From positions 1 to 26,900 of IMG/VR virus record IMGVR_UViG_3300037041_000455: a stretch of 26,900 nt of DNA. One strand, 5' to 3'. The DNA is from a virus. The translations under genes were made by a program, and so were the position numbers. The notes under the pieces were generated by a model that worked only from the letters and a program-made list of their open reading frames with translations, did not search any database and was not told the origin of the DNA. Shown one piece after another: positions 1 through 21,739 of this stretch. Positions within the stretch are counted from its first letter, which is position 1. Every line of letters begins with the position of its first letter.

Positions 1-104
1 GGTAACAGGCCGCCCGGAAGCCCACAGCGCTGCTGGAGCCGCCCCGCGTACTGCCGAAACCCACACCCCAAACCCCCGCATCGGAACTGCCGCTCCAATA
101 GTAG
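1..104 (-). other. Candidate DGR variable region (partial)
   Basis: This is the C-terminal coding stretch from residue 425 of the lectin-fold protein to the window edge. On the coding strand only 9 of the last 100 bases are A, and the last 60 bases are about 72% G+C, against roughly 23% A at 301-360. Many codons at the expected surface positions end in C or T (GGT, GGT, TTC, GGC, AGT, GGC, GGC, TCC, AGC, AGC, GCT). That is what adenine-specific mutagenesis of AAC/AAT template codons would leave, although the GTG codon at residue 438 does not fit. No template repeat is visible in the window, so the boundaries are approximate. Confidence 0.5.
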
Positions 105-1375
105 GCAACGACGAGGCACATTTTGTTGATGAGATAACGATATAAGCCGTCCTTGCCAAACAGGTTGGTCCCCGGACTGCCGAGTCCGTTTGCGGTTTCC
201 GGAAAGCCGAGACCAGCCAGCAACCACGCATTTCCGCTGACATCATCGGCCAATACCTGATTCGCGCCGTTGCCGAAATAGGTCCATCCGTCATTCCCGG
301 TGATGAACGGAACGGTAAGAGCATCAAACATGTCATATCTTCCCCAATGGTCGGTTGCGGCGGCATTGTCTCCGTTCGTGAACGTTTTCATTGCCGTTGC
401 TTGTTTTGCGACATAGAAATTCGTGCCGTCGCAGGTTACGCCGATGGAGATTTCGTATATGAGGCCGTTTACATCAGCAATCCCGCAATTCTGTCCGTTG
501 TGAGTTGACTTGGCAAATACATTGCCCGCACCACCTCCGTATCCAGCAGATCCAGTCTTTCCACAGTTTGAGTAACCGTCTGATTCCCATTTCACAGTGG
601 TGTCGTCTGTATCAGACAGTGCATTGTTATTACATCCCTTGGGATAGTTATAAGTGGCGTGCCACCATGCACAGTTCTTCGTTTGAGTACCATTGACTGT
701 TGCTGCTTGACCGTGAGCCAATGTCAGCTTTGCAATAGCTCCTCTCTGAAACTGGGAAGCTGCGAACATTATCGAACTGGCGTTGACGTTCCCATTGACT
801 CCGTCTATCCGATGGGCAAGGTCGATTGCAGAGTAATAATAGTTAGCGCCACCTGTCAGGTCTGAGAACGGATTATGTGCAGCGGCGCTCGACAACGGAA
901 GTCCGTTCTTTACCGAACCTGCTGTGAACCCTGTTCCGTTAGCGACCTTACTTGCCTTGTACTTAAAGCAGAACCATCCAGGTTGCACTACTCCACCATC
1001 GTAGAATGACCTGTCTAAAGCGTATCCCTGCGCGTTTGCTTCGGCCTCAGTTGCAAAGGTATTCAGTCCTACAATGTCAATAGTATTCGCGCCGTATGTG
1101 GCGTAGTGAGGGCTGGCGGTGCTTCCGATACGGTAGAAGAAAGCCGGGACGTATCCGAATATGCTGCCTTCCGTAAACTGATAGTCACCGTAATTGTCAT
1201 TGAATCTATCGGTACAGCCAGTCAATGGCACCATCCCTGTTGGGAGGTAGGCTGTCGGACAGACACCCTTTCCAAATCCCATTGTTCCAGGTTCGCCTAT
1301 TGAGAGTGGGGAGTTTACATTGTAGGCGTTCTGAAATCTCGATATGCCGTTGGTTCTCTTAACAATTAGTCCCAC
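1..1375 (-). CDS. DGR-type variable tail protein, C-type-lectin/FGE-like fold (3' end cut by window)
   Basis: The frame is open for 458 codons from a GTG at 1375 to the left edge. The start is chosen because TAAGGAGG (stop codon of the gene before, fused to a strong ribosome binding site) lies 7 nt upstream of the GTG. Residues 298-304, GIADVNG, followed by LIYEI match the GxxDxxGNVWEW-type signature of the formylglycine-generating-enzyme/C-type-lectin fold. Residues 427-444 read WSGSSDAGVWGVGFGSTR, and 451-456 read VGFRAA. This is the arrangement seen at the C-terminus of DGR target proteins, where the surface residues of the lectin fold are diversified. The N-terminal part (GSIFGYVPAFFYRIGS, about 70-85) resembles phage fibre proteins carrying such domains. 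It is the last gene of a fibre cluster, so a receptor-binding role is inferred. The stop codon, and any template repeat or reverse transcriptase, lie outside the window. The fold is supported by motif; DGR membership is inference. Confidence 0.82.
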   Translation of the reverse strand, partial: MGLIVKRTNGISRFQNAYNVNSPLSIGEPGTMGFGKGVCPTAYLPTGMVPLTGCTDRFNDNYGDYQFTEGSIFGYVPAFFYRIGSTASPHYATYGANTIDIVGLNTFATEAEANAQGYALDRSFYDGGVVQPGWFCFKYKASKVANGTGFTAGSVKNGLPLSSAAAHNPFSDLTGGANYYYSAIDLAHRIDGVNGNVNASSIMFAASQFQRGAIAKLTLAHGQAATVNGTQTKNCAWWHATYNYPKGCNNNALSDTDDTTVKWESDGYSNCGKTGSAGYGGGAGNVFAKSTHNGQNCGIADVNGLIYEISIGVTCDGTNFYVAKQATAMKTFTNGDNAAATDHWGRYDMFDALTVPFITGNDGWTYFGNGANQVLADDVSGNAWLLAGLGFPETANGLGSPGTNLFGKDGLYRYLINKMCLVVAYYWSGSSDAGVWGVGFGSTRGGSSSAVGFRAACY

Positions 1376-1387
1376 TGTTTGGCCTCC

Positions 1388-2146
1388 TTAAACGGCTCGT
1401 AGATGCTGTATGATCTTCATGGTAAGTGCTGCATTTTCAAAGGAACTGGTTGACTTGTATATCCACCCGCGTACTCCCGGACTACTCTCCAAAAGCGCAG
1501 CGGTTGCGGCGGGGGAGGTGAGTTTCGCATAATTATAATTCTTTAAATGCAAATTACCAGTAAACCCAACAACATTTCCTAATCCAACTTCCACAAAACC
1601 AGCAGCCGCACCCGCCGTTGAATACCAATTAGTTGTTACATAAGAGGCAGTTGATGAGAACAAAGGTGAGAAATAATCTGCAAATCCTTTGTATAAGCGC
1701 AGATCAGTCGCTGATCCCGTACCATTCTTCAAGTCAATCTGGGCCTTATACAGCGCCCCAGCTATTGCTGACGTTCCGGTAAGTTTGTGGATATTTGGGC
1801 CACTATTGTCTGGAGTTGAATCATAAACATAGTGGTCAGTGTCAAACACAAGAGTACATCTAACAAGAACCCAATTAGCAGTGCCATCAGATGCCATTGT
1901 ATCCGACACAATGGCCGTATCCAAACTCTCCCCCGCACTCTTACTCTTCGAGATCAGCGCCTTCCCTACCAGCACCCCGGCGCTGTACAATTCGAGATAG
2001 CTGCGACCGTCCCTATATGGCCCGAAGTCAAAGGGCGAACCTGATACGATAGGGGCGGCAAAGGCATTGAGAGTGGTGGAATCTATCAGGGCGTTCCCCA
2101 CTGTTATCGCTGTGGCAGGTATTACTACGCTTGGGTAAATATTCAT
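1388..2146 (-). CDS. Hypothetical fibre-cluster protein, 252 aa
   Basis: I do not recognise a named family. The protein is rich in Ser, Thr, Ala and Gly with alternating hydrophobic residues, as in beta-sandwich virion proteins. The N-terminal part (residues 40-75, FDFGPYRDGRSYLELYSAG and following) looks like a short beta-rich module. The ATG at 2146 lies 4 nt after the stop codon of the previous gene, with GGTG as a modest ribosome binding site. Its own stop TAA is fused to the binding site of the lectin-fold gene downstream (TAAGGAGG), so the two are probably translated together. From position alone it may be a fibre-associated or chaperone-like partner of the variable tip protein. No signal peptide or membrane segment is visible. 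Confidence 0.75.
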   Translation of the reverse strand: MNIYPSVVIPATAITVGNALIDSTTLNAFAAPIVSGSPFDFGPYRDGRSYLELYSAGVLVGKALISKSKSAGESLDTAIVSDTMASDGTANWVLVRCTLVFDTDHYVYDSTPDNSGPNIHKLTGTSAIAGALYKAQIDLKNGTGSATDLRLYKGFADYFSPLFSSTASYVTTNWYSTAGAAAGFVEVGLGNVVGFTGNLHLKNYNYAKLTSPAATAALLESSPGVRGWIYKSTSSFENAALTMKIIQHLRAV

Positions 2147-2834: not shown

Positions 2835-4850
2835 TTAACTGCTAAATGCAATAGTACCGTCAAGACAAACGAGCTGGATGCTTGTTGCTGAAGTTACACG
2901 CCATCTCATTGAGCCTCTGGCGCTCACGGCAAGCTCCACGTACCCTGCCGCTGTGGAAGCTCCTGCTGCTGAATAAGCGTAGGTGCCCGCAGGAAGCTGA
3001 AGCCTTAGTACCCCTGCTCCGGTGCCGGTCTTGACCACATCGAACATCTTACCGACATCGGCAGCTACTACAGCTCCGAGGGTGAATGTCTGCGTGCTGC
3101 TATGATCGCCAAGGTACTGCATCGGGATTGCTGACAGGTCGGAAGGTGCGATTGCTCCATCTGCTGCGGCAAAGTTGATCACATCCACGCCGATCTCTTG
3201 GTAGTTCGGGCTTGGGTCATAGTAGATAATACCCACGCTGGCTGTATTCGTGCTTGTTGCATGTCCTAACGTCTGCAAACAGACCGTAGCCGTAGTTGAG
3301 GGAACTGGCGCTGTCTGTGTGATCAACCCTGCCGTTTCACTTGGGTAGATGTCCTGGCCACAGGTCATTCCAGCCCAAAGGGAGTCCTTCCTGATATAGC
3401 CTCTCTTCAGGAATGCCCCTGTTGCTGCTGCGTTGATAGTGCCAAGAGCGATTGCAGAACCGGGCATCGTAGCTGAGGTCGAGGAATCGCACTTGTACCA
3501 CTTCAGGTCGGCTGCAAGATAGCAGTGGGAGCCGAAGGTAAGATTCTCTCCTGCTGTACCTGCGGGGATCTTCTCAATGGCGCAGAAGGTTTCATCCGTG
3601 GTAAGGGCTGGCTGAAGTACAATACCGCCACAGTCAGGGATTAGCACTTCTCCATTGCCTATGATGACCTTGCGCAAGGATAACTCGCTCATGAAATTCC
3701 ATCTCGCGTCCCCTGCTGCATAGTCCACTACGCCAAGCTGGGCTGAGTCAGCAGGGAAGGCTGCGGTGGCCATTGTGGAGCCGCCCATTTGGAGGACCTT
3801 GGCTGCGGAGGTGCCTGCGGCGGTGAGGGCTCCGAACAAGGCATTTTGGGACGTATCTACTTTTAATCCTAATTTCCATCCAGAGTTAGATACATTAACC
3901 ACAAATCCCGCTTCTGCATTTAGGGTTAAATTTCCGCCGTTAGCTGTAATCTGATTCGTTGTGAAAGCCATCCCAGCAAACCAGCCAGTAATATTGTAAA
4001 ACCAATGTTTCCCGTCTGCCAAGATAAACCCCTGCGTCGCCCCCGCGCTATTCACAAACGTAGCAATCGGCAACTGCACGCTCGTCAGTTCCGTAGCGGC
4101 TGCAAGGGTGCAGGCGGTGTCAACGGTGCAGGCAGTCGAGTTCGTCCAACTCTGGATGTACCGTGTAACCGAAGCCTGCTTAATCGGCCCTGTGATAATC
4201 GTAGTGCCGAGGATGGGGTTGGTGGCGCTGTACCCTGCGAGGATAGCATCTGCGGCAGAGCTGAAGGTCACTGTGGTCGAGCTGCCAGAGGTGCTTACTG
4301 TCCCTGCGAAGCTGGTTGAGGCTGCGGGGCCTTTGGATGTTACCGGGGTGGCGAATACTTTGCCGAAGGTGACATCGCTCGTAGTCGTAGTAGCCTGATT
4401 CTGCCATGCCGCCCATGAGGTGAGGTAGAGGTAGATGGTGTTTACGTCTTCTACTTCGCAGATCATGCCCTCATTAGGACTAACAGAAATCCACACGGAC
4501 CCATTAAATTCTGCTATATCATTATTAAGTGCTCCATCCCAATTAGCATGAGGGGCACCCGTGGCACCAACAATGTATCTATCTCCAAGAACCTCTGTAG
4601 GTGGAGCATTAGTAGCCGTAGCAATTGACTTAACTGAATCCTGTGCGTCTAAAGTTACGGAAGCACCAATAGCTTTAGTCCACGTAGCCACTCCTGAAGT
4701 AACATCAAGTAGAATATACGCCTTGTTATTAGTACCATCTAGCCACACAGTAGGTACACGATACTGTGTATCAGAAGTAGTAGGGACTGCGGTCTTATGC
4801 ACTACCGGAAGTACCTTTCTAGTTAAGTTCCAAGGAAGTATTGAATTCAT
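2835..4850 (-). CDS. Tail fibre protein with DUF2793-like module, 671 aa
   Basis: The start is placed at ATG 4850 because GGAGG lies 5 nt upstream. A longer frame beginning with TTG at 4892 would overlap the previous gene and lacks a binding site. Residues 83-149 (PPTEVLGDRYIVGATG, then WDGALNNDIAEFNGSVWISV and a Trp-containing end) look like DUF2793, a module found in phage fibre proteins. The C-terminal 200 residues are Ala/Thr/Gly-rich with motifs such as GYIRKDSLWAGMTCGQDIYP, typical of repetitive fibre shafts and tips. Base composition swings inside the gene: about 40% G+C at 4501-4740, 58-65% at 4081-4320, and 35% at 3841-3900. This suggests a mosaic built by recombination. Role inferred: host attachment, with the lectin-fold protein. 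Confidence 0.82.
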   Translation of the reverse strand: MNSILPWNLTRKVLPVVHKTAVPTTSDTQYRVPTVWLDGTNNKAYILLDVTSGVATWTKAIGASVTLDAQDSVKSIATATNAPPTEVLGDRYIVGATGAPHANWDGALNNDIAEFNGSVWISVSPNEGMICEVEDVNTIYLYLTSWAAWQNQATTTTSDVTFGKVFATPVTSKGPAASTSFAGTVSTSGSSTTVTFSSAADAILAGYSATNPILGTTIITGPIKQASVTRYIQSWTNSTACTVDTACTLAAATELTSVQLPIATFVNSAGATQGFILADGKHWFYNITGWFAGMAFTTNQITANGGNLTLNAEAGFVVNVSNSGWKLGLKVDTSQNALFGALTAAGTSAAKVLQMGGSTMATAAFPADSAQLGVVDYAAGDARWNFMSELSLRKVIIGNGEVLIPDCGGIVLQPALTTDETFCAIEKIPAGTAGENLTFGSHCYLAADLKWYKCDSSTSATMPGSAIALGTINAAATGAFLKRGYIRKDSLWAGMTCGQDIYPSETAGLITQTAPVPSTTATVCLQTLGHATSTNTASVGIIYYDPSPNYQEIGVDVINFAAADGAIAPSDLSAIPMQYLGDHSSTQTFTLGAVVAADVGKMFDVVKTGTGAGVLRLQLPAGTYAYSAAGASTAAGYVELAVSARGSMRWRVTSATSIQLVCLDGTIAFSS

Positions 4851-4860
4851 ATCTTCCTCC

Positions 4861-5214
4861 TTAGTACGCACGAAGTTTGGCAGTAACAACAATAGAACTT
4901 GCTCCGCCAGTTTCAGTGAATTTTATTTTGAATTGATTGCAAGGAGTAACATCAAAATCAACCATATTAGTACCACTCGTTCCACTTGTCTTAGTCTGTC
5001 CTGTAGTAATATCAGGATCTAATTCTAAAAACACACTCCCGTCATTAGACACAAGATCCTCTGCCTTCATAGTACCATCACCAGTAACTGTCCACTGAAG
5101 AGAAAACAATCCTTTAAGTTCAGTACAGTCAAAGGCATCAGTAGTATATGATCCGCTCGCTGTGATTGTGCCTGAGGAAATAGAAACAGTGTTAGTGTTG
5201 CGAAGCTTTATCAT
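4861..5214 (-). CDS. Small beta-rich virion protein, 117 aa
   Basis: The protein starts MIKLRNTNTVSISSG, with GGAGG 8 nt upstream of the ATG at 5214. The frame is open further upstream, but that extension runs through two palindromic repeats and the end of the previous gene, so the downstream start is preferred. The sequence alternates Thr/Ser/Val, with a conserved-looking core around FDCTELKGLFSLQWTVTG and a C-terminal half FKIKFTETGGASSIVVTAKL. This resembles small decoration or fibre-base proteins. I cannot name a family. It is the first gene after the double palindrome at 5237-5307 and therefore opens the fibre gene block. Confidence 0.75.
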   Translation of the reverse strand: MIKLRNTNTVSISSGTITASGSYTTDAFDCTELKGLFSLQWTVTGDGTMKAEDLVSNDGSVFLELDPDITTGQTKTSGTSGTNMVDFDVTPCNQFKIKFTETGGASSIVVTAKLRAY

Positions 5215-8300: not shown

Positions 8301-9748
8301 TTGTATTTACTCCAAAGGTTATTCTGAAACTGCTCTTCAACTCTTCCTGCTTCTAGTCTTGTACTAAGTTTATGTTCTACTTCCGCCAACGTATCAAGAG
8401 GACGTGGTCGCGTTCCAACTTCATATGCAGTTCTGAGTAGAACGTTCTTATTCATACTACTCAAAGCAGCATCATCAAATCCTCTTGATTTAAGCTCAAC
8501 TAGTGCATCTTCGATTATCCCAGGACTTTTACTAGCCCGTTGAACTATCGCAGACATATCTTCAGTAGGAAACATCTTACGCAGGGTGTCTACTCGATTA
8601 GCAAAAACACTTGCATTAACATCAGCATCTTTTCGTGCTTGATTAAGTTCTCCTACTTTAGTTACTTCATCGAAAGAAGTTTGTCGCTTCATTACACCAG
8701 AACTTACTCTACCAGTGGCCTCTTCTAAAGGCATACCTCCCTGTGTGAGCTTTCCAATTTCTTCAAAATCAGCCTTTTCCCAAAATTCAGGTCTAGGAGT
8801 GGCAACTGTTACCTTTTCCTTTGCTAACGCAGCAGTCTTTTCTGCGTCATCAAAGCCTAGGATATTTTTAAGCGAAGGATCCTTTGCTAAGTTAGCCGCC
8901 ATATCATTGACAGCACCTAAATCCTTTTTCAACACAGATGATATAAGACCTTCAACGCCTCGTTCAATACCATGCATTGCTGCGACATCAGTAACAAGAC
9001 GTACACCTAAAGTCTTCAAAGGATTTGCAGCAGCCCATTGAGACTGCGTTATTGGAGACATCACAACATCAGCAATGGGAGCTGCCGTAGCCATCAACAT
9101 TCCCGCACCAGCAATTCGAGCAAGGGGATGGGGTAACTTCGCAACTAAAGGACCAGCTGCCTTTATCGCACCCTTCCAACCCATCTTGGCAATGCCCTCC
9201 GCTGCCGTCTGAAACAGTGCTCCCGCGGCAAGGTTATGTAGTGGATTAGAGAAAATAGGATTATTCTTCTCAAAATCAGCCATTCTTGCTGCTTTATATT
9301 CGTTGTACAAAGGCACATCTGTATTAGCTTTTTTGCCTGAAATATTTGACTCGTTCTCAAACAAGTAGTTATGCAACTCACCAGTTTTAAGAATATCTAA
9401 ATACTTATTCTTATAAAGATTAGCCACAACTTCTTGTGGGTGCATATTTGGATTAGCAACGATAGCAGCATTTGCTTGCGCAAGTACTTGAGAACCAAGT
9501 CGTTTCCTTGGATCGTCATCGGGAATAGCTTTTTCTATCCGATCCAAGGTTGCATTACGTGCTATCTTCGCACCTTCTTTTTCAGGCAACGCAGTATGCG
9601 CGTAGTGAGACACAAGGCGTTCTGTGTACTGAGGATCAGAAAGATACTTTTCCTGTGCCTCTTGTGTACGGCGACCTTCTGCCATATTATAAGCAATTAT
9701 ATTGGAGACTATAGGATCTCTCTTAGTAAGTTCTTCGAACAAGCCCAT
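5306..9748 (-). CDS. Large internal virion (ejection) protein, 1480 aa
   Basis: This is the largest gene in the window, starting MGLFEELTKRDP at 9748 with a GGGAG binding site. Most of the chain is charged and helical. Two glycine/alanine-rich hydrophobic stretches, about residues 172-235 and about 690-725 (FAGVTAVTGLGMATVGDLIG), could insert into membranes. Length, helical composition and the position after two other helical proteins match the large ejection proteins of podoviruses such as T7 gp16, which enter the host envelope ahead of the DNA. I see no clear lytic transglycosylase or peptidase active-site motif by eye. A C-terminal segment RLLFLFQGTPFKLAEQRF resembles a motif in very large phage virion polyproteins. 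The gene ends at a palindromic element. The ejection role is inferred from size, order and composition. Confidence 0.75.
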   Translation of the reverse strand: MGLFEELTKRDPIVSNIIAYNMAEGRRTQEAQEKYLSDPQYTERLVSHYAHTALPEKEGAKIARNATLDRIEKAIPDDDPRKRLGSQVLAQANAAIVANPNMHPQEVVANLYKNKYLDILKTGELHNYLFENESNISGKKANTDVPLYNEYKAARMADFEKNNPIFSNPLHNLAAGALFQTAAEGIAKMGWKGAIKAAGPLVAKLPHPLARIAGAGMLMATAAPIADVVMSPITQSQWAAANPLKTLGVRLVTDVAAMHGIERGVEGLISSVLKKDLGAVNDMAANLAKDPSLKNILGFDDAEKTAALAKEKVTVATPRPEFWEKADFEEIGKLTQGGMPLEEATGRVSSGVMKRQTSFDEVTKVGELNQARKDADVNASVFANRVDTLRKMFPTEDMSAIVQRASKSPGIIEDALVELKSRGFDDAALSSMNKNVLLRTAYEVGTRPRPLDTLAEVEHKLSTRLEAGRVEEQFQNNLWSKYNQLTEDFTKTNIGKVRNMPTEELLLHREKAQELNRMGILNDAEYRSFDKIYRLAEAPVTEKELFSKVGPQVASQEWQNSAVKHIDLAVKEGDYNKWDSVISHFTDNVDLKFNSKDYKSFQDKLTKFVGNPDVSAMYEKEGLDTAKTFNRIVYGNPVSETKNMVRQHIDDMIKQGIPSDTISKELQSRWGNTWSKFAGVTAVTGLGMATVGDLIGPAKADAAGLDATTRIVPKMLRAFAEQRGVRSFEEAITEMAEKGYAFGKLTDDGYGVATTQKFWGMTPDVSDVKRMNEIHYIQDKMTPGAQAQILFHDWASPQPQAAYMTTMAHNNSDLMLQAVRNVLREVPEYARVTKEVEKEMFPFVQKYGTSMSEASWLDNAIETIDTALAGKYKQVDKANALSGTSKYMKDVRTGKRTKLDATEEDQVYTLMKLQDDYKGQRALYDDAVASYGADWEVLAKNLASKYSSSRIALAVEDVGMKEGDAWLAPMLSERETFAVSKIKAINEQLEAMMISVGENPIVAKEFIHHASHPGLDYKAAMKGIEKFTPDSMTGIDMAHFHHRASWSKQLMPDVEYIMERYLPDANMRVGMSEFWNTWRPFKQQMDALGYNGISRYLGNLEKGFRNTDQYGTINQWAQRVQMFEVARFIALSPSVALKHGFKVLANVANYGFGNALANIPRDLSAFVRNTRMDMGDAPKDAFEAVMKGHINTRRIYTLANDMAMYGLPKKAVDKFLEGFNDKAGFMLNASERFDRGTSFLNAMTMASKQGMTPEQSSYLVMDAVLKNNFLSGIHNPSWLRDPKTRLLFLFQGTPFKLAEQRFITAMRGSGAVADAAKESYKQLMNLKNDIIEGTQTFKAHLIKDALMNPKDLAGNSYAAQLARNILVIGATVESGKYFFDGDMWGMFHVPFVKKQEQSVNLALNPLLGAALRTYNNKDEDAFWMTDFLRKWLSSGDGDKLYFGPTGSQKLYRLNNNDIPEIYKDSKFRYIFAIPTAKTDE

Positions 9749-9772
9749 TTTGAATCTCCCTTTTACTTATTA

Positions 9773-10399
9773 CTAAGGACGTGCAACGCCTAACCGTTTC
9801 CTTGGATCTGTTGGATCAAATACATGACTGTAATTAGGTGCTGTAGGTGCAACCGCCGTGGAAACAGCAACATTTGGAATTGCTACAGGAGAAGGATTAT
9901 TAAACGATCCTCCTGTTTGAGAACGAAAGATTCTACGCCATTCCTCAGGATCACTAAGTACAGTGCCCTCAGCCAACTTAGTTCTTGCCATATTTGAAGT
10001 TAATTGTGGCAAGTATTTTCTTTGTTCGTCTAGTCCTAACCTACCTGTAGTATCCCAGGTATACTGAGACTGCTCATTTGCTTGATTGAGTGCGGTTGTC
10101 CTTGCTCCCTGAAAACCTATATTACCTTGACTTTCTTGAATGTCAAAAGGTAACATAGCAACTTTCTTTTTAGTATCCTGCTCAAAACCAAGTGTCTGTG
10201 CAGCGCGTCCAGGAGCAAGTGCAGCTATTTCTCTGTCCATAGCACCACCAGGACCATAGTGCATAGTAGCAACTTTCTCTTGAGAAGCATTTTGAGCAGC
10301 GTAAATATCTGCCTTGTTTTTATCAACCTTATTAGAGTAATCCATAAACTTATTATACTCTGCTTCTTTGTAATCTTTCCAGGGATCATATTGTGCCAT
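9773..10399 (-). CDS. Putative internal virion protein, 208 aa
   Basis: It starts MAQYDPWKDYKEAEYNKF at 10399 with GGAGG 7 nt upstream. The protein is hydrophilic and mostly helical, rich in Gln, Ala, Lys and Asp. The C-terminal 50 residues are Pro/Val/Ala-rich (SPVAIPNVAVSTAVAPTAP) and may be disordered. No enzymatic motif is visible. It lies between the 396-aa helical protein and the 1480-aa protein, the usual place for a smaller ejection protein in podoviruses. Palindromic element B lies directly upstream of its ribosome binding site. The identification rests on position and composition. Confidence 0.65.
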   Translation of the reverse strand: MAQYDPWKDYKEAEYNKFMDYSNKVDKNKADIYAAQNASQEKVATMHYGPGGAMDREIAALAPGRAAQTLGFEQDTKKKVAMLPFDIQESQGNIGFQGARTTALNQANEQSQYTWDTTGRLGLDEQRKYLPQLTSNMARTKLAEGTVLSDPEEWRRIFRSQTGGSFNNPSPVAIPNVAVSTAVAPTAPNYSHVFDPTDPRKRLGVARP

Positions 10400-10411
10400 C
10401 TTACATCCTCC

Positions 10412-10440
10412 GAGATTTGTTCATTAATTGGACGGTTCTT
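10412..10440. repeat. 29-bp palindromic element, copy B
   Basis: On the plus strand it begins GAGATTTGTTCATT, has A at the centre, and ends ATTGGACGGTTCTT. It fills almost the whole 39-nt gap. One end overlaps the stop codon at 10439-10441 and the other touches the GGAGG of the 208-aa gene. It shares its degenerate arm (GATTTGTTCA) with copy C at 16556, suggesting these two have a common recent origin. Confidence 0.8.
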
Positions 10441-11629
10441 ATTTATTATAATTATAAACTGTAGAAACCCTTGGACCTTCGGCGGTTTCTTTAGTCATAT
10501 CATAACTATCACCCCTGTTATAGGTATTAGAAGCTGACAATCCATCACTCGCTCCAATAGACGCCGACGCGTGAATACTGGTAAGTGCTGCTGCCATACC
10601 CTGACCAGACACAGAAGCCAATGCTTTAGCGCACTCCACCTTTGCCTGATAAACAGCAATATCTTCTTGCACCTGAAGTTCAGCCATTTTCATAGCTTGT
10701 GTAAGCTTAAGTTTAGCAACTTCCAATGTAACAGTAGCTGCTTTGTACAAAGCGTCAATCTGAACGGAAGCAAGTTGAATTGTTGCCTTATATTTATCTA
10801 TATACATACCAAGAAGTTTTACACCCTCATCAACAGCAGAAATAATGCCTGTAAGAACCGCACTAAACGCCTGAACTTGTGCAGAGTACTTTTTGATTCT
10901 TGTTTCATTTACAATAGAGATCATTTGAATCTCTTGCAAAGTCTCTTGTAACGCATACTTTTGAACTTCAGTAAGAATAAAATGTTCATTAGTCTGAGCA
11001 AGTCGAGCTTGTTCAATGGCTATATCCATATCCATACCATCTCTTTTGCGACCAATCTCAATGTTGATTTCGCTTAACCTGCCCGCCAACATACCCGGAG
11101 GCATTGAAAATCCTCTCGAAGAGAAGTACTTTTCAGTCTCTTCATACATCTTCTGTACTTCAAGTTCTTGTCTGTCCAACGCCCTCTGCCAAATATCTGC
11201 CTCAACATCTGCACCTAAACCAGTTCCTCCTGCAGCGAGTTTAGCAAGAAGTTTTACTACGTAGTTATCCATTAACTGATCAGCAAGATTAGTCCTGACT
11301 ACAGGAAAATCCTGAAGAGGATCAAGAACAGGAACTGAAGGAACCGGGGGAAGACCATTGAGTTCAGTAATCTTACTCATTATGTCTCTGTACTCAATGC
11401 CCTTAGAGTCTGTATCAACATCTGAGGTTATATCATCAGTATCAACAGAAGGTTCCTCAATATCAATAGTCTCCCCATCGAAGTTATCTATCTTATTCTT
11501 TAATTCGTCAACAGCATCATTAAAAAGATCCCATGACTGATCAGCATAATCCTTTGCTTCATTGAATTTATCAGTTACAAGTGAAGTGGCTTCGTCTTGT
11601 TTCTTAACTATATCTTCATAAATAGCCAT
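10439..11629 (-). CDS. Helical virion protein, probable ejection/injection protein, 396 aa
   Basis: It starts MAIYEDIVKKQDEATS at 11629. The binding site AGGAG is formed from the stop codon TAG of the gene before it, so translation is probably coupled. Residues 1-90 are acidic and helical. Residues 170-186 (SSRGFSMPPGMLAGRLSEI) match a motif I know from helical virion proteins of podoviruses, the pattern RGFSxPPGxLA. Residues about 185-345 form a long amphipathic helix rich in Ala, Gln and Lys, with coiled-coil character. The tail is Ser/Tyr/Asn-rich. Its position before the 208- and 1480-aa proteins supports an internal virion role. A tail-needle or baseplate-like role is the alternative. 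Confidence 0.7.
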   Translation of the reverse strand: MAIYEDIVKKQDEATSLVTDKFNEAKDYADQSWDLFNDAVDELKNKIDNFDGETIDIEEPSVDTDDITSDVDTDSKGIEYRDIMSKITELNGLPPVPSVPVLDPLQDFPVVRTNLADQLMDNYVVKLLAKLAAGGTGLGADVEADIWQRALDRQELEVQKMYEETEKYFSSRGFSMPPGMLAGRLSEINIEIGRKRDGMDMDIAIEQARLAQTNEHFILTEVQKYALQETLQEIQMISIVNETRIKKYSAQVQAFSAVLTGIISAVDEGVKLLGMYIDKYKATIQLASVQIDALYKAATVTLEVAKLKLTQAMKMAELQVQEDIAVYQAKVECAKALASVSGQGMAAALTSIHASASIGASDGLSASNTYNRGDSYDMTKETAEGPRVSTVYNYNK

Positions 11630-11638
11630 TATAAACTC

Positions 11639-14014
11639 CTAAATCTCAATTACTGTTTTTAGTTCAGTCATGTTAATCCCGTATATCTCATCAGGAAGAG
11701 GATCTTGCTCATCAAATAACTCCGTTGCCCAATTATCAGGATCTGATAAAGAAACAATTCCTACCACTCTTTTTGAAGTTTCCCATAATTTAGTTCCAAG
11801 ATTAGTATTCCAATCTTCGAAGTTCAAAGGACTATCGTAATACGAACCCGCTCCTTGCGCATTTGCAGTAGTTACAAAACTATCAAGATCATAGGTAACA
11901 AGTACGTTCTTTTGTACCATCTTAACCACAACACCATAACATCTTTGTCCTGATCCAGTTCCGAGTCCTCCATTAAAAGTTGCAAGAACCTTTGAATATA
12001 CTCTTCCTCCAATGTTTGCATAAAGAATATATTCAACTTTTCTTGTTCCTGTACACGTAGAAGTATCATGTGATGTTATCTCTGACTCTGACGGATCTCT
12101 AGGAGGAGGATAGTTAAATCCTCCGCCGTTACTTATAATTCCTGCTTGAGCAGATCCACAATTTATAGAAGATGAAGATCCTATACTTCTCGGAAGACTA
12201 CTTGATACGGTTATCTTCTTATATACGATGGAAAATGCTTTCACATAATTATTGTCGTAGTAAAAATTAGACTCCGAATCATAATCAAGTACTTCAAAAC
12301 AAATCATAATTCTATTGCAGTTTACCGTAGTAGCAGAATTATCAACTCTTGTTCCTGTACTTATTGCATACCCACTCCATCCTCTGTAATCATAAGTATC
12401 ATTTATCCAAGTATATTCTCCATTATAGTCAAAAGTTGTAACTCTGCTTGCACTGTAAGTTAATGTTCCTGTTCCAGAATCAACAGTATAAGATCCTGCT
12501 TTCAACGAAGACGCAATACTTCCTGATACAGAATATGAAGTGTTTTCCGTAGAAATAGAAGTTGACTTATCAACCCACTCGCCTTCGCCCCACATTTCTG
12601 TATAAGATGGATACCATAGATAAACACCATCACCAAAAGTAGTATCTTTAGTATGAGTGAAAGTCTTATCATAACTATAAGAACTACTTAGAACAACCTT
12701 ATTACTTACTTCAATAACATCTCCGTCACATATAGTTCCTATAAGAACATTCTTTTCTACTGAACAATTCCAATTACAAGAAGAAGTATTAGTATCTACC
12801 CATGTACTGCTAAGTGGACCATCATCAAGTGTCCAATCTCCACCACCAGGATTTCGATAGTGAGGTCTTGGTGCAGTTGTACTACTACTAACAACAGGAT
12901 TCCCAGTAAACGTTGCTGCATCTGTAGATTTAACCTCTGTATGTTCTACACCATCAATACTTGTGTATTTGTAAGACCATTGTCTTGATCCTAATCCATT
13001 CTCAGGAATATAGCACTGACCATAGAAACTATCATTACCTGACCAACTGTAAATAAAGAAATAAGGAATCTCCCAAAGATAAGGAACAAACGGCCACAGA
13101 TACATAATCCAATTATCTCCAGGTTGATTCTCTGACCAACTTCCAGTTCCTGTAGTTTCTACTCTCTCATTATATCTTGTAATAAATCCGTTTACATCTC
13201 TCGTCCACGGAGTCTTTCCATACGCCTTATGTAAAGTCTCAACCATATGATACTGCTTAGGATCGTTGTCATAAGTAAGATCAACTTTTCCAGGTCTATA
13301 AATACGTTTTTCTTGGTCAATACTTCTAACTATGTGACTTCTAGAAGTTCCACCAAATGTGTAGTAAGAGTGACTCCAGTGAAAATACTTACCAGACGAT
13401 CTTGATTGCAGACCAGGATGTGCCCAGGTATTCGCATAATCACTCACAGCATACGCACCTCCAGAAGCCCACCAATAAGGAAAGTCAACCCACATAAACT
13501 TCTTGTAATGCCAATCATCTCTGTGGTCTGCAGCTACCACAAAGATATTATCATTAGCCACATTAGAAATTCCATTTATAATACTAACACAACTTTCCTC
13601 ATATCTGTCATAGTTAGTCTGATCAAGACTAAAATAATTATTAAAAACAGTATATTTATTTTCCTTTAACTTCAAACCAGTTGCCCTTGTTATTGACGTA
13701 GGATAAACTGAATAAAAGGAATTATACGACTGTCCTGTACTTACTAAGTCTATTTCATATATTGTAAGACTAAGTTCATTGATGACTTTTATCTCTTTAG
13801 GTTCCTCTACCACTACTTCGGGGTAGTATATAATAGATTTAGTTCCTGTCTTTGTATATAAAGTTCTAATAACAGCACCATTATCGAATATTGCGTATCT
13901 TTGTAGTACTCCATAATCAAAATTCTTAGCATATCTCTCAGTAATAAATTGCTCCTGCAAGGCAACGCCTTTAAGCAATTCACACTTATCTTTATTTCCA
14001 CTAAGAATAAACAT
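11639..14014 (-). CDS. Aromatic-rich structural/adhesin-like protein, 791 aa
   Basis: The start is set at ATG 14014, whose A is shared with the stop TAA of the preceding gene (TAATG), a sign of translational coupling. A GTG start at 14089 would overlap the neighbour by 25 codons and is less likely. The protein is unusually rich in Tyr, Trp, Ser and Thr. Residues about 150-330 contain blocks such as WVDFPYWWASGGAYAVSDY and WPFVPYLWEIPYFFIYSWSG. Later parts hold Ser/Thr beta-like repeats (TSYSVSGSIASSLKAGSYT) and several Cys residues. I recognise no enzyme or named domain. Aromatic-rich beta proteins in this place are often tail spikes or sugar-binding appendages, but that is inference. Confidence 0.8.
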   Translation of the reverse strand: MFILSGNKDKCELLKGVALQEQFITERYAKNFDYGVLQRYAIFDNGAVIRTLYTKTGTKSIIYYPEVVVEEPKEIKVINELSLTIYEIDLVSTGQSYNSFYSVYPTSITRATGLKLKENKYTVFNNYFSLDQTNYDRYEESCVSIINGISNVANDNIFVVAADHRDDWHYKKFMWVDFPYWWASGGAYAVSDYANTWAHPGLQSRSSGKYFHWSHSYYTFGGTSRSHIVRSIDQEKRIYRPGKVDLTYDNDPKQYHMVETLHKAYGKTPWTRDVNGFITRYNERVETTGTGSWSENQPGDNWIMYLWPFVPYLWEIPYFFIYSWSGNDSFYGQCYIPENGLGSRQWSYKYTSIDGVEHTEVKSTDAATFTGNPVVSSSTTAPRPHYRNPGGGDWTLDDGPLSSTWVDTNTSSCNWNCSVEKNVLIGTICDGDVIEVSNKVVLSSSYSYDKTFTHTKDTTFGDGVYLWYPSYTEMWGEGEWVDKSTSISTENTSYSVSGSIASSLKAGSYTVDSGTGTLTYSASRVTTFDYNGEYTWINDTYDYRGWSGYAISTGTRVDNSATTVNCNRIMICFEVLDYDSESNFYYDNNYVKAFSIVYKKITVSSSLPRSIGSSSSINCGSAQAGIISNGGGFNYPPPRDPSESEITSHDTSTCTGTRKVEYILYANIGGRVYSKVLATFNGGLGTGSGQRCYGVVVKMVQKNVLVTYDLDSFVTTANAQGAGSYYDSPLNFEDWNTNLGTKLWETSKRVVGIVSLSDPDNWATELFDEQDPLPDEIYGINMTELKTVIEI

Positions 14015-20144: not shown

Positions 20145-20657
20145 TTAAGGAATAATGCTGATAAGCATCATTACCTGAACTTGACCAATAATTATAGTTG
20201 CTACCTTAGGAAAGATGGCAATAGCAGGAACATTGGTACTTGCTCCTACAATCAGATTACCACCTTCGATAAAGGTACCTGATACCTGCGAATCAACAAA
20301 GTCTCCAGCGGTCGGATAGTATCTTCCAATCGTGGTTGCAGTAATGTCCTCTGCCTCAACAAAAGCATCATCATTTGTGACTGTAGCAACTCCTCCTGTA
20401 GTAACAGAATCAGTTGCTAAAGTACACAACCCTAATTCAAGGGTAGTGGCAGTGGTAAACGCAGTCAACACGTTTACCATTATGCCACTAATAATAATCT
20501 GCTGATCAGTTGTAGGAAAAGAGAACAATACGCAGGCTTTGTTTTTCAACCCAGAAACATCAAATCCATCGACAACCTTAGACATGATCCAATAAGGATC
20601 ACCAGCAAGATTGGTACGAAGATCAGTGCGTCTGTAGTCCTGCACAGTTGTACTCAT
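20145..20657 (-). CDS. Tandem paralogue 3 of a small virion protein, 170 aa
   Basis: It starts MSTTVQDYRRTDLRTN. It shares the opening DYRR[ST]D.RTN, the block VSGLKNKACVLFSFP and the ending VATIIIGQVQVMMLISIIP with the two genes directly upstream (20667-21194 and 21206-21739). It is the most diverged of the three. For example it has GDPYWIMSKVVDG where the others have NPFWLTSAVVDG or TPFWISSAVVDA. Predicted beta-rich, no membrane segment. Copies in tandem after the capsid gene suggest surface decoration proteins that could form a hetero-oligomer. Confidence 0.8.
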   Translation of the reverse strand: MSTTVQDYRRTDLRTNLAGDPYWIMSKVVDGFDVSGLKNKACVLFSFPTTDQQIIISGIMVNVLTAFTTATTLELGLCTLATDSVTTGGVATVTNDDAFVEAEDITATTIGRYYPTAGDFVDSQVSGTFIEGGNLIVGASTNVPAIAIFPKVATIIIGQVQVMMLISIIP

Positions 20658-20666
20658 TTCTACCTC

Positions 20667-21194
20667 CTACGTACCAGGAATAATACTCACAAGCAGGTGC
20701 AACTGAGCTTTACCTACAATGATAGTTGCAACTTTGGGAGTCAAGGCAATGCAAGGAACTGCCGCAGCGATACCAGTAATCATGTTGTTATTAGCAACAT
20801 GCGTACCAGCTGCACGAGCAGTAAGCCAATCACTTGACGTAGCTCCATACCAACCAATCGTGGTAGCATCTATAGTAGAAGCTGTAGGAATCAACTGGTT
20901 AACAGTTCCTACAAGCGTGGCATCACCTGCCGTAGTCACGGCATCAGTTAACAGCGTGTAGATACCAACATCAATAGTGGTAGTTGCCGTGAAACCTAAG
21001 ATAATGTGAAGCCACACATCCCAGATGATAATCTTCTCTCCTGCTTTGGGAAAGGAAAACAGTACACAAGCCTTGTCAGCAAGACCAGATACAGCTGCTC
21101 CATCCACAACCGCAGAAGTAAGCCAGAACGGATTCTCCAGCGCATTAGTACGCTGATCAGTTCTTCGATAATCCTGAATCGTTGCAGTTGACAT
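20667..21194 (-). CDS. Tandem paralogue 2 of a small virion protein, 175 aa
   Basis: It starts MSTATIQDYRRTDQRTN. It is closely related to the gene before it across the N-terminal 55 residues (NALENPFWLTSAVVDGAAVS, then KACVLFSFPKAGEKIIIWD) and the last 50 residues (WLTARAAGTH ... VPCIALTPKVATIIVGK ... IIPGT). The middle third differs more. A gap of 11 nt and a GGAGG site precede it. The conserved ends with a variable middle suggest the ends make a shared fold or interface. Function unknown; a decoration role is inferred. Confidence 0.8.
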   Translation of the reverse strand: MSTATIQDYRRTDQRTNALENPFWLTSAVVDGAAVSGLADKACVLFSFPKAGEKIIIWDVWLHIILGFTATTTIDVGIYTLLTDAVTTAGDATLVGTVNQLIPTASTIDATTIGWYGATSSDWLTARAAGTHVANNNMITGIAAAVPCIALTPKVATIIVGKAQLHLLVSIIPGT

Positions 21195-21205
21195 CTATAA
21201 ACCTC

Positions 21206-21739
21206 CTATGTTCCAGGAATAACGGCAATCTGCATGTGAACCTGGATCTTCCCAACAATTACTGTTGCAGTGCCAAAAGTTAATGTTACACAAGGAACAG
21301 TAGAAGCTGCCCCCGTAAGAAGATTTGCTGCCGCCGTATGCGTTCCTGCAGCCCTTGCAGTCAACCATGTATTTGCCGCAGCAGGCGTATACCAAGCTGC
21401 AGTAATGGCAGTAAAGTTAGCATTGGTCATGAAGTTGTCAGTAGTTGCTCCTGCGTACGTCATGGTTCCTGCAGTAGTAACTGCGTCTGTTGCAATAGTT
21501 CCATAACCAACTTTAATAGTCGTTAACGATGTAAATCCTGTGATAATCTGGCAAGCAATATCCCAAATTATAGTTTTCTCGCCCTCCTTAGGAAAGGAGA
21601 ACAAAAGACATGCTTTGTCCTTCAGACCTGCTACTGCCGCCGCATCAACAACTGCCGAGGAAATCCAGAACGGAGTTTCCAAAGCATTCGTACGGAGGTC
21701 AGATCGTCTGTAATCTGCAATCGTAGCTGTAGTAGCCAT
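21206..21739 (-). CDS. Tandem paralogue 1 of a small virion protein, 177 aa
   Basis: It starts MATTATIADYRRSDLRTN at 21739 with AAGGAGG upstream. It is the first of three tandem copies. Shared parts are the DYRR..RTNALE.PFW opening, KACLLFSFPKEGEKTIIWD at about 41-60, WLTARAAGTH near 125, and the ending VGKIQVHMQIAVIPGT. It is Ala/Thr-rich and beta-like. It follows the 136-aa gene by 12 nt, in the same transcription unit as the major capsid gene. The copies most likely arose by gene duplication. Confidence 0.8.
   Translation of the reverse strand: MATTATIADYRRSDLRTNALETPFWISSAVVDAAAVAGLKDKACLLFSFPKEGEKTIIWDIACQIITGFTSLTTIKVGYGTIATDAVTTAGTMTYAGATTDNFMTNANFTAITAAWYTPAAANTWLTARAAGTHTAAANLLTGAASTVPCVTLTFGTATVIVGKIQVHMQIAVIPGT

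Follow-up and report, generated by a model that had tools for sequence, protein, structure and literature searches.

The gene that runs off the left end of the window is, with a probability of approximately 95%, the target of a phage diversity-generating retroelement (DGR), a system by which phages alter the tip of a protein of their own. In this DGR the target, carrying a variable repeat (VR) at its 3′ end, is followed by Avd, a template repeat (TR) and a reverse transcriptase (RT), all behind a virion and fibre block. The window is an entire IMG/VR record of 26,900 bases, which stops at base 1 with no sequence further left, and the rest of the cassette was located on a second contig, L103. 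The cassette, the adenine specificity and the fold were shown by computation, and the system is a DGR of a known kind. The coordinates of the features are summarized in Table 1.

The target open reading frame covers 458 codons at 2–1375 of the minus strand, leaves the contig end, and amounts to 460 residues once completed by L103. The original prediction described a GTG-start frame of this length with a ribosome-binding site, a GIADVNG signature at residues 298–304 and a lectin-type ending, and all of these were recovered, the closing stretch being WSGSSDAGVW...STR...VGFRAA. Because IMG/VR and bacterial genomes contain homologs with up to approximately 60% identity over most of its length, the frame was considered a real gene and not a chance one. 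Within the signature, G298, D301 and G304 were invariant across 47 homologs, and the signature resembles the D-x-x-G-N-V-W-E motif known from C-type-lectin folds of the FGE type. Two PHROGs families of unknown function, phrog_2889 and phrog_20912, were matched by the gene, and no match was obtained in Pfam, FGE-sulfatase included, or in NCBIfam. A search of IMG/VR for close relatives with the target alone gave no match, and two target homologs were obtained by tblastn against phage records.

A DGR template and its variable repeat differ only at positions where the template carries A. IMG/VR was scanned with a VR pattern in which the possible template-adenine positions were left free, and a single contig, L103 (IMGVR_UViG_3300037041_000700, 5,345 bp), was matched twice, at 49–84 and 628–663. 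A DGR-type RT and an A-rich template repeat had been expected to the left of base 1, and both were found on L103; no RT was present within the 26.9 kb record of the window itself. The order on L103 was the target end (CYHV-stop), Avd, TR, RT, an HNH-like gene and, around an amidase gene further on, probable lysis genes. The target stop codon was located at L103 133–135, which is 6 bases past window base 1 and 12 nt past the VR end. The L103 Avd also matched the NCBIfam Avd model NF033474 (E 2e-19, below the curated cut-off). The RT carried the motifs IGNLLSQ, an SQ variant of motif 4 (IGxxxSQ), and YVDD, both conserved in the alignment with the DGR RT of Helicobacter ganmani prophage BK070120.

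Table 1. Positions of the target gene, its neighbours and the DGR cassette in the window and on contig L103.
Feature	Window position	Strand	L103 position	Remarks
DGR target gene	1..1375	-		GTG start 1373-1375; 458 codons in window; H, V and stop on L103
GGAGG ribosome-binding site	1383..1387	-		7 nt ahead of target GTG
GIADVNG signature	464..484	-		Target residues 298-304; FGE-type structure matches
Variable repeat (VR), 116 nt	7..122	-	585-700 (template copy)	
252-aa gene adjoining target upstream	1388..2146	-		Family unassigned
Gene with DUF2793 domain, 685 aa maximum	2835..4892	-		Probable fibre-block protein
Exact end overlap with L103	1..127	.	1-127	L103 bases are the reverse complement of the window bases
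Post-VR hairpin, G-A form	~8-25 bases past base 1		135-152	GCC-GA-GC-GATA-GC-GA-GGC
Avd, 133 aa			165-563	PF22296 bAvd, E 1.3e-15, above cut-off
Template repeat (TR)	~456 bases past base 1		about 583-700	
Reverse transcriptase, 338 aa	~700 bases past base 1		about 829-1845	RVT_1, E 3e-14
HNH-like gene			1879-2463	Directly after RT

As the window and L103 are separate records, the possibility was weighed that the target is a fixed C-type-lectin adhesin, that the L103 DGR comes from a different phage, and that the overlap arose by chance or by a chimeric join. The G+C contents of the two records differ somewhat (42.9% and 48.6%), and no RT match was obtained near 16 target homologs that have 2 kb or more of sequence downstream, so DGR-less members exist. 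However, the 127 exactly shared bases include all 25 hypermutated sites, which cannot recur by chance, and a chance overlap was therefore excluded. Moreover, the target frame reads into L103 and meets its stop 2 codons on, and the only TR-like match in the window is its own VR. The length of the overlap is a common assembler k-mer length, and exactly 127 bases would be the pattern of neighbouring edges in a k=127 assembly graph, as expected of neighbouring contigs. Synteny also spoke against two phages, as one contig of G001, the nearest relative of the window phage (portal 62%, capsid 78%), has homologs of window genes and of the L103 gene 2825–3265 (52% identity), without a DGR. Taken with this evidence, an origin from separate phages was judged extremely improbable.

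As the source of the cassette, G001 was rejected, having neither a target homolog nor an RT, and MT835557 has a target homolog and lacks an RT. No overlapping contig was found at the right end of the window, and the overlap search with the right end of L103 returned only L103 itself. Three adjacent paralogous genes of 170–177 aa were observed at window 20145–21739, and G001 likewise has three copies. The HNH-like gene of L103, a possible homing endonuclease, showed weak similarity to an HNH-like ORF beside the G001 capsid gene.

Comparing VR with TR over 116 aligned nt, 25 of the 36 template adenines were substituted, and none of the 80 other bases was. By our own arithmetic, the probability that 25 random differences among 116 sites would all fall on the 36 adenines is approximately 1e-16. 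All 13 template AAY codons were altered in VR, to Y, S, G, D, G, G, G, S, G, G, S, S and A. The absence of any mismatch at the 80 non-A positions indicates that no drift has occurred since the last copying event. VR lies at the 3′ end of the target ORF, as anticipated; the range of variation had been placed at 1–104, a little away from the actual template-matching repeat, which spans residues ~419–457. No second VR was found elsewhere in the window, the best other place having 43 non-A mismatches out of 80. VR has been replaced at least once by an RNA-templated copy of TR, with substitutions at template adenines only. On the model of BPP-1 and other DGRs, TR RNA would be reverse-transcribed by a complex of RT and Avd that makes errors at adenines, and the resulting cDNA would take the place of VR, with the IMH-like GGCCT end and the hairpin that follows the stop codon as guides. 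In the protein, the residues encoded by VR would make up the variable, ligand-binding surface of an FGE-type C-type-lectin domain.

The fold of the target was predicted with AlphaFold2 on the alignment of the 47 homologs, and the resulting model had a pLDDT of 89.7 and a pTM of 0.92. Its best match among solved structures was TaqVP, the DGR variable protein of a Thermus aquaticus prophage (PDB 5VF4, PMC6328139), with Z 32.1 over 297 residues and a Foldseek E of 3e-13, followed by two further DGR variable proteins, TvpA (Z 12.7) and Mtd (Z ~12), and by formylglycine-generating enzymes (FGE, Z ~11). In the case of the PDB sequences, 5vf4 was the sole match of the family profile (E 1.8e-6). An FGE-type C-type-lectin fold with VR on the C-terminal strands is supported both by this confident model and by the matches to solved structures, in line with the earlier reading of a C-type-lectin ending.

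TaqVP and the window target share more than the fold. Both have VR at the very C-terminus, and the order target-avd-TR is common to the TaqVP locus and the window/L103 cassette. The two proteins come from different hosts and phages, however, with ~18% identity over the aligned part, and the variable sites comprise 9 residues in TaqVP and 13 AAY codons in the window target. Adenine-directed copying and an Avd-type accessory protein are also shared with Bordetella phage BPP-1 (Mtd, Avd, bRT), whose Mtd is trimeric and multi-domain and is the weaker structural match.

A closer counterpart was BK070120 (L002), in which 9702–13308 holds a complete DGR with every CDS annotated as hypothetical. The target homolog of this prophage is followed by an RT, and its 113-nt repeat has 91% identity, with all 10 mismatches at template A. 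The nearest well-covered homolog is therefore a genuine DGR target. The homologous target (31–32% identity), Avd, TR and RT stand in the same order as on L103, whereas the RT is 39% identical to that of L103, the hairpin stem is perfect and the N-terminal part of the target is longer. The IMG/VR DGR phages L104–L108 have RTs 65–74% identical to that of L103, with the same cassette, TR/VR layout and GGACT/GGCCT ends, but their template sequences differ from that of L103, and in the L106–L108 group two VR alleles occur on identical backgrounds.

The family survey covered 97 loci, 68 viral and 27 genomic ones from profile searches plus BK070120 and L103, and TR/VR pairs were called with an adenine-tolerant scan. 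A pair was found in 60 of the 97 homologous loci, usually in the order target-Avd-TR-RT and in most cases with a spacing of 545–664 nt. The 16 RT-less target homologs (L014, L028, L041, L055, L056, L058, L061, L062, L064, L066, L069, L072, L080, L084, L096 and L099) belong to the family as members that either lack a DGR or are served in trans. The flanks of L107 and L108 showed no difference in 2,000 nt of downstream and 1,500 nt of upstream sequence (100% identity), and all 18 VR differences fell at template A. Similarly, L010 and L012 showed 20 VR differences, all at template adenines. The RTs of L107/L108 are 65% identical to the L103 RT, and those of L010/L012 are clearly homologous to it. 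As relatives with identical flanks differ in VR only at template adenines, the DGR family is live, and we infer that the DGR is active at present in the window phage.

A relic, in which the RT or the target site no longer works in the window phage, was also considered. The window phage offers a single VR sequence, and decay does occur in the family: the repeats of L059 and L063 have decayed and contain many non-A mismatches, and an internal stop codon interrupts the RT frame of L109 (6001–6990, on the same contig as L075), although the TR/VR mismatches of L109 are adenine-only. Against a relic stand the intact RT, Avd, TR and VR of the window/L103 locus, the lack of non-A mismatches, and the near relatives on otherwise identical contigs that differ only at adenines. 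A relic was consequently judged unlikely.

The site at which the copy would be received showed two features beyond the repeat itself. In 25 loci, L103 among them, TR ended in GGACT and VR in GGCCT, and this fixed difference is more reminiscent of IMH* and IMH in BPP-1 than of mutagenesis. According to PMC3240598, BPP-1 and other phage DGRs require a GRNA-loop hairpin just 3′ of VR, the stems being given there as 7–10 bp; a perfect GC stem is what has been described for phage DGRs. BPP-1 and L103 both have such a hairpin with a 4-nt loop at this place; the stem of BPP-1 is a perfect 8 bp, whereas that of L103 consists of 3 bp, a tandem G-A/A-G step and 2 bp under a GATA loop. Across the family, 51 of 64 loci had a GRNA-loop hairpin no more than 75 nt from the VR end, compared with an expectation of 0.15 for shuffled sequence, and in none of the 64 loci did one follow TR. 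Perfect stems were present in 22 family hairpins. The core GA-NN-GRNA-NN-GA, with a tandem G-A/A-G step between the tetraloop stem and the outer stem, was present in 33 of the 64 loci.

The inner pairs of this core co-vary, GC/GC being replaced by AC/GT in L034 and L092. For the outer stem, the flanks were re-paired among loci 2,000 times as a control. The outer arms fitted their own partners better (mean 2.9 vs 1.6, sd 0.2), and none of the 2,000 re-pairings was as high, the value being somewhat inflated by near-copies. The G-A and perfect forms interchange about nine times on the RT tree. The folding energy of the L103 hairpin alone was no better than that of shuffles (z -0.78), and the hairpin argument therefore rests on the family. 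A search of Rfam gave no match. A kink-turn reading of the core was dropped, since the extra bases are not on the side of the G-A pairs that a kink-turn requires. Among the phage-DGR stems described in the available part of PMC3240598, a G-A-interrupted one is not included, and the conserved tandem G-A interruption of the post-VR hairpin may be a new observation.

The kind of substitution also varied between loci. Over 61 loci, 53% of the substitutions at template adenines were to G, 27% to C and 21% to T, and the spectra differed between loci beyond chance (chi-square 273, 118 df, p 3e-14). The between-locus spread persisted after correction for the 3′ neighbour (variance of Z 2.6 vs 1). L103 was the most A-to-G biased, with 22 of 24 substitutions against a context-corrected expectation of 12.7 (P ~1e-5 before allowing for 59 loci). 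No correlation was found between the A-to-G fraction and the G+C of the locus (Spearman 0.16, p 0.23). For the BPP-1 DGR reconstituted in E. coli, C misincorporation (A to G) was put at 59% and described as strongly dependent on context (PMC12875486), and G misinsertion in the NAT context by the reconstituted BPP-1 RT was reported to be rare. In the TR/VR pairs of the family, 51% of the substitutions at adenines before T were to C (71/140), and 39 of 40 at adenines before G were to G.

A bias specific to the RT may be the cause, as may the dNTP pools or selection acting on the single VR sampled. Locus-specific A to G, C or T spectra may be a new observation. It is tentatively proposed, at somewhat less than even odds, that the DGR family employs a modified GRNA hairpin (2-bp stem, conserved tandem G-A/A-G, variable outer stem) instead of a perfect GC stem, and that its RTs or the host cells have locus-specific error spectra, the near-exclusive A to G changes of the window phage steering its variable site to Gly/Ser/Asp in place of an even randomisation.

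By analogy with BPP-1 and from gene position, the target most likely sits at the fibre tip, where it would alter receptor choice. It lies directly after the virion and fibre-like gene block, with one direction of transcription. The virion genes are P22-like (portal PF16510, E 8e-112; capsid PF13252, E 8e-36), the DUF2793 gene is a probable fibre-block protein, and the position of the adjoining 252-aa gene suggests a fibre or baseplate-associated protein. Alternatively, the diversified protein could decorate the virion, or it could be secreted as an adhesin that binds to something else than the surface of the host cell. The target gene is free of Pfam domains and tail annotation, and the sequence of single-domain targets such as TaqVP gives no link to a tail. 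Such a role was considered rather doubtful given the place of the gene behind the fibre block, and a receptor-binding tip is preferred.

The discovery of the rest of the cassette on an overlapping contig confirmed a by-eye prediction based on a truncated gene. A search pattern that leaves possible template adenines free is able to retrieve DGR targets located at contig ends, a useful property given that assemblies are broken by hypervariable repeats. Moreover, the survey yielded about 60 related DGRs of phages and prophages with their TR/VR pairs, among them allele pairs on identical backgrounds, and this set allows direct tests of the error spectrum and of the target hairpin.
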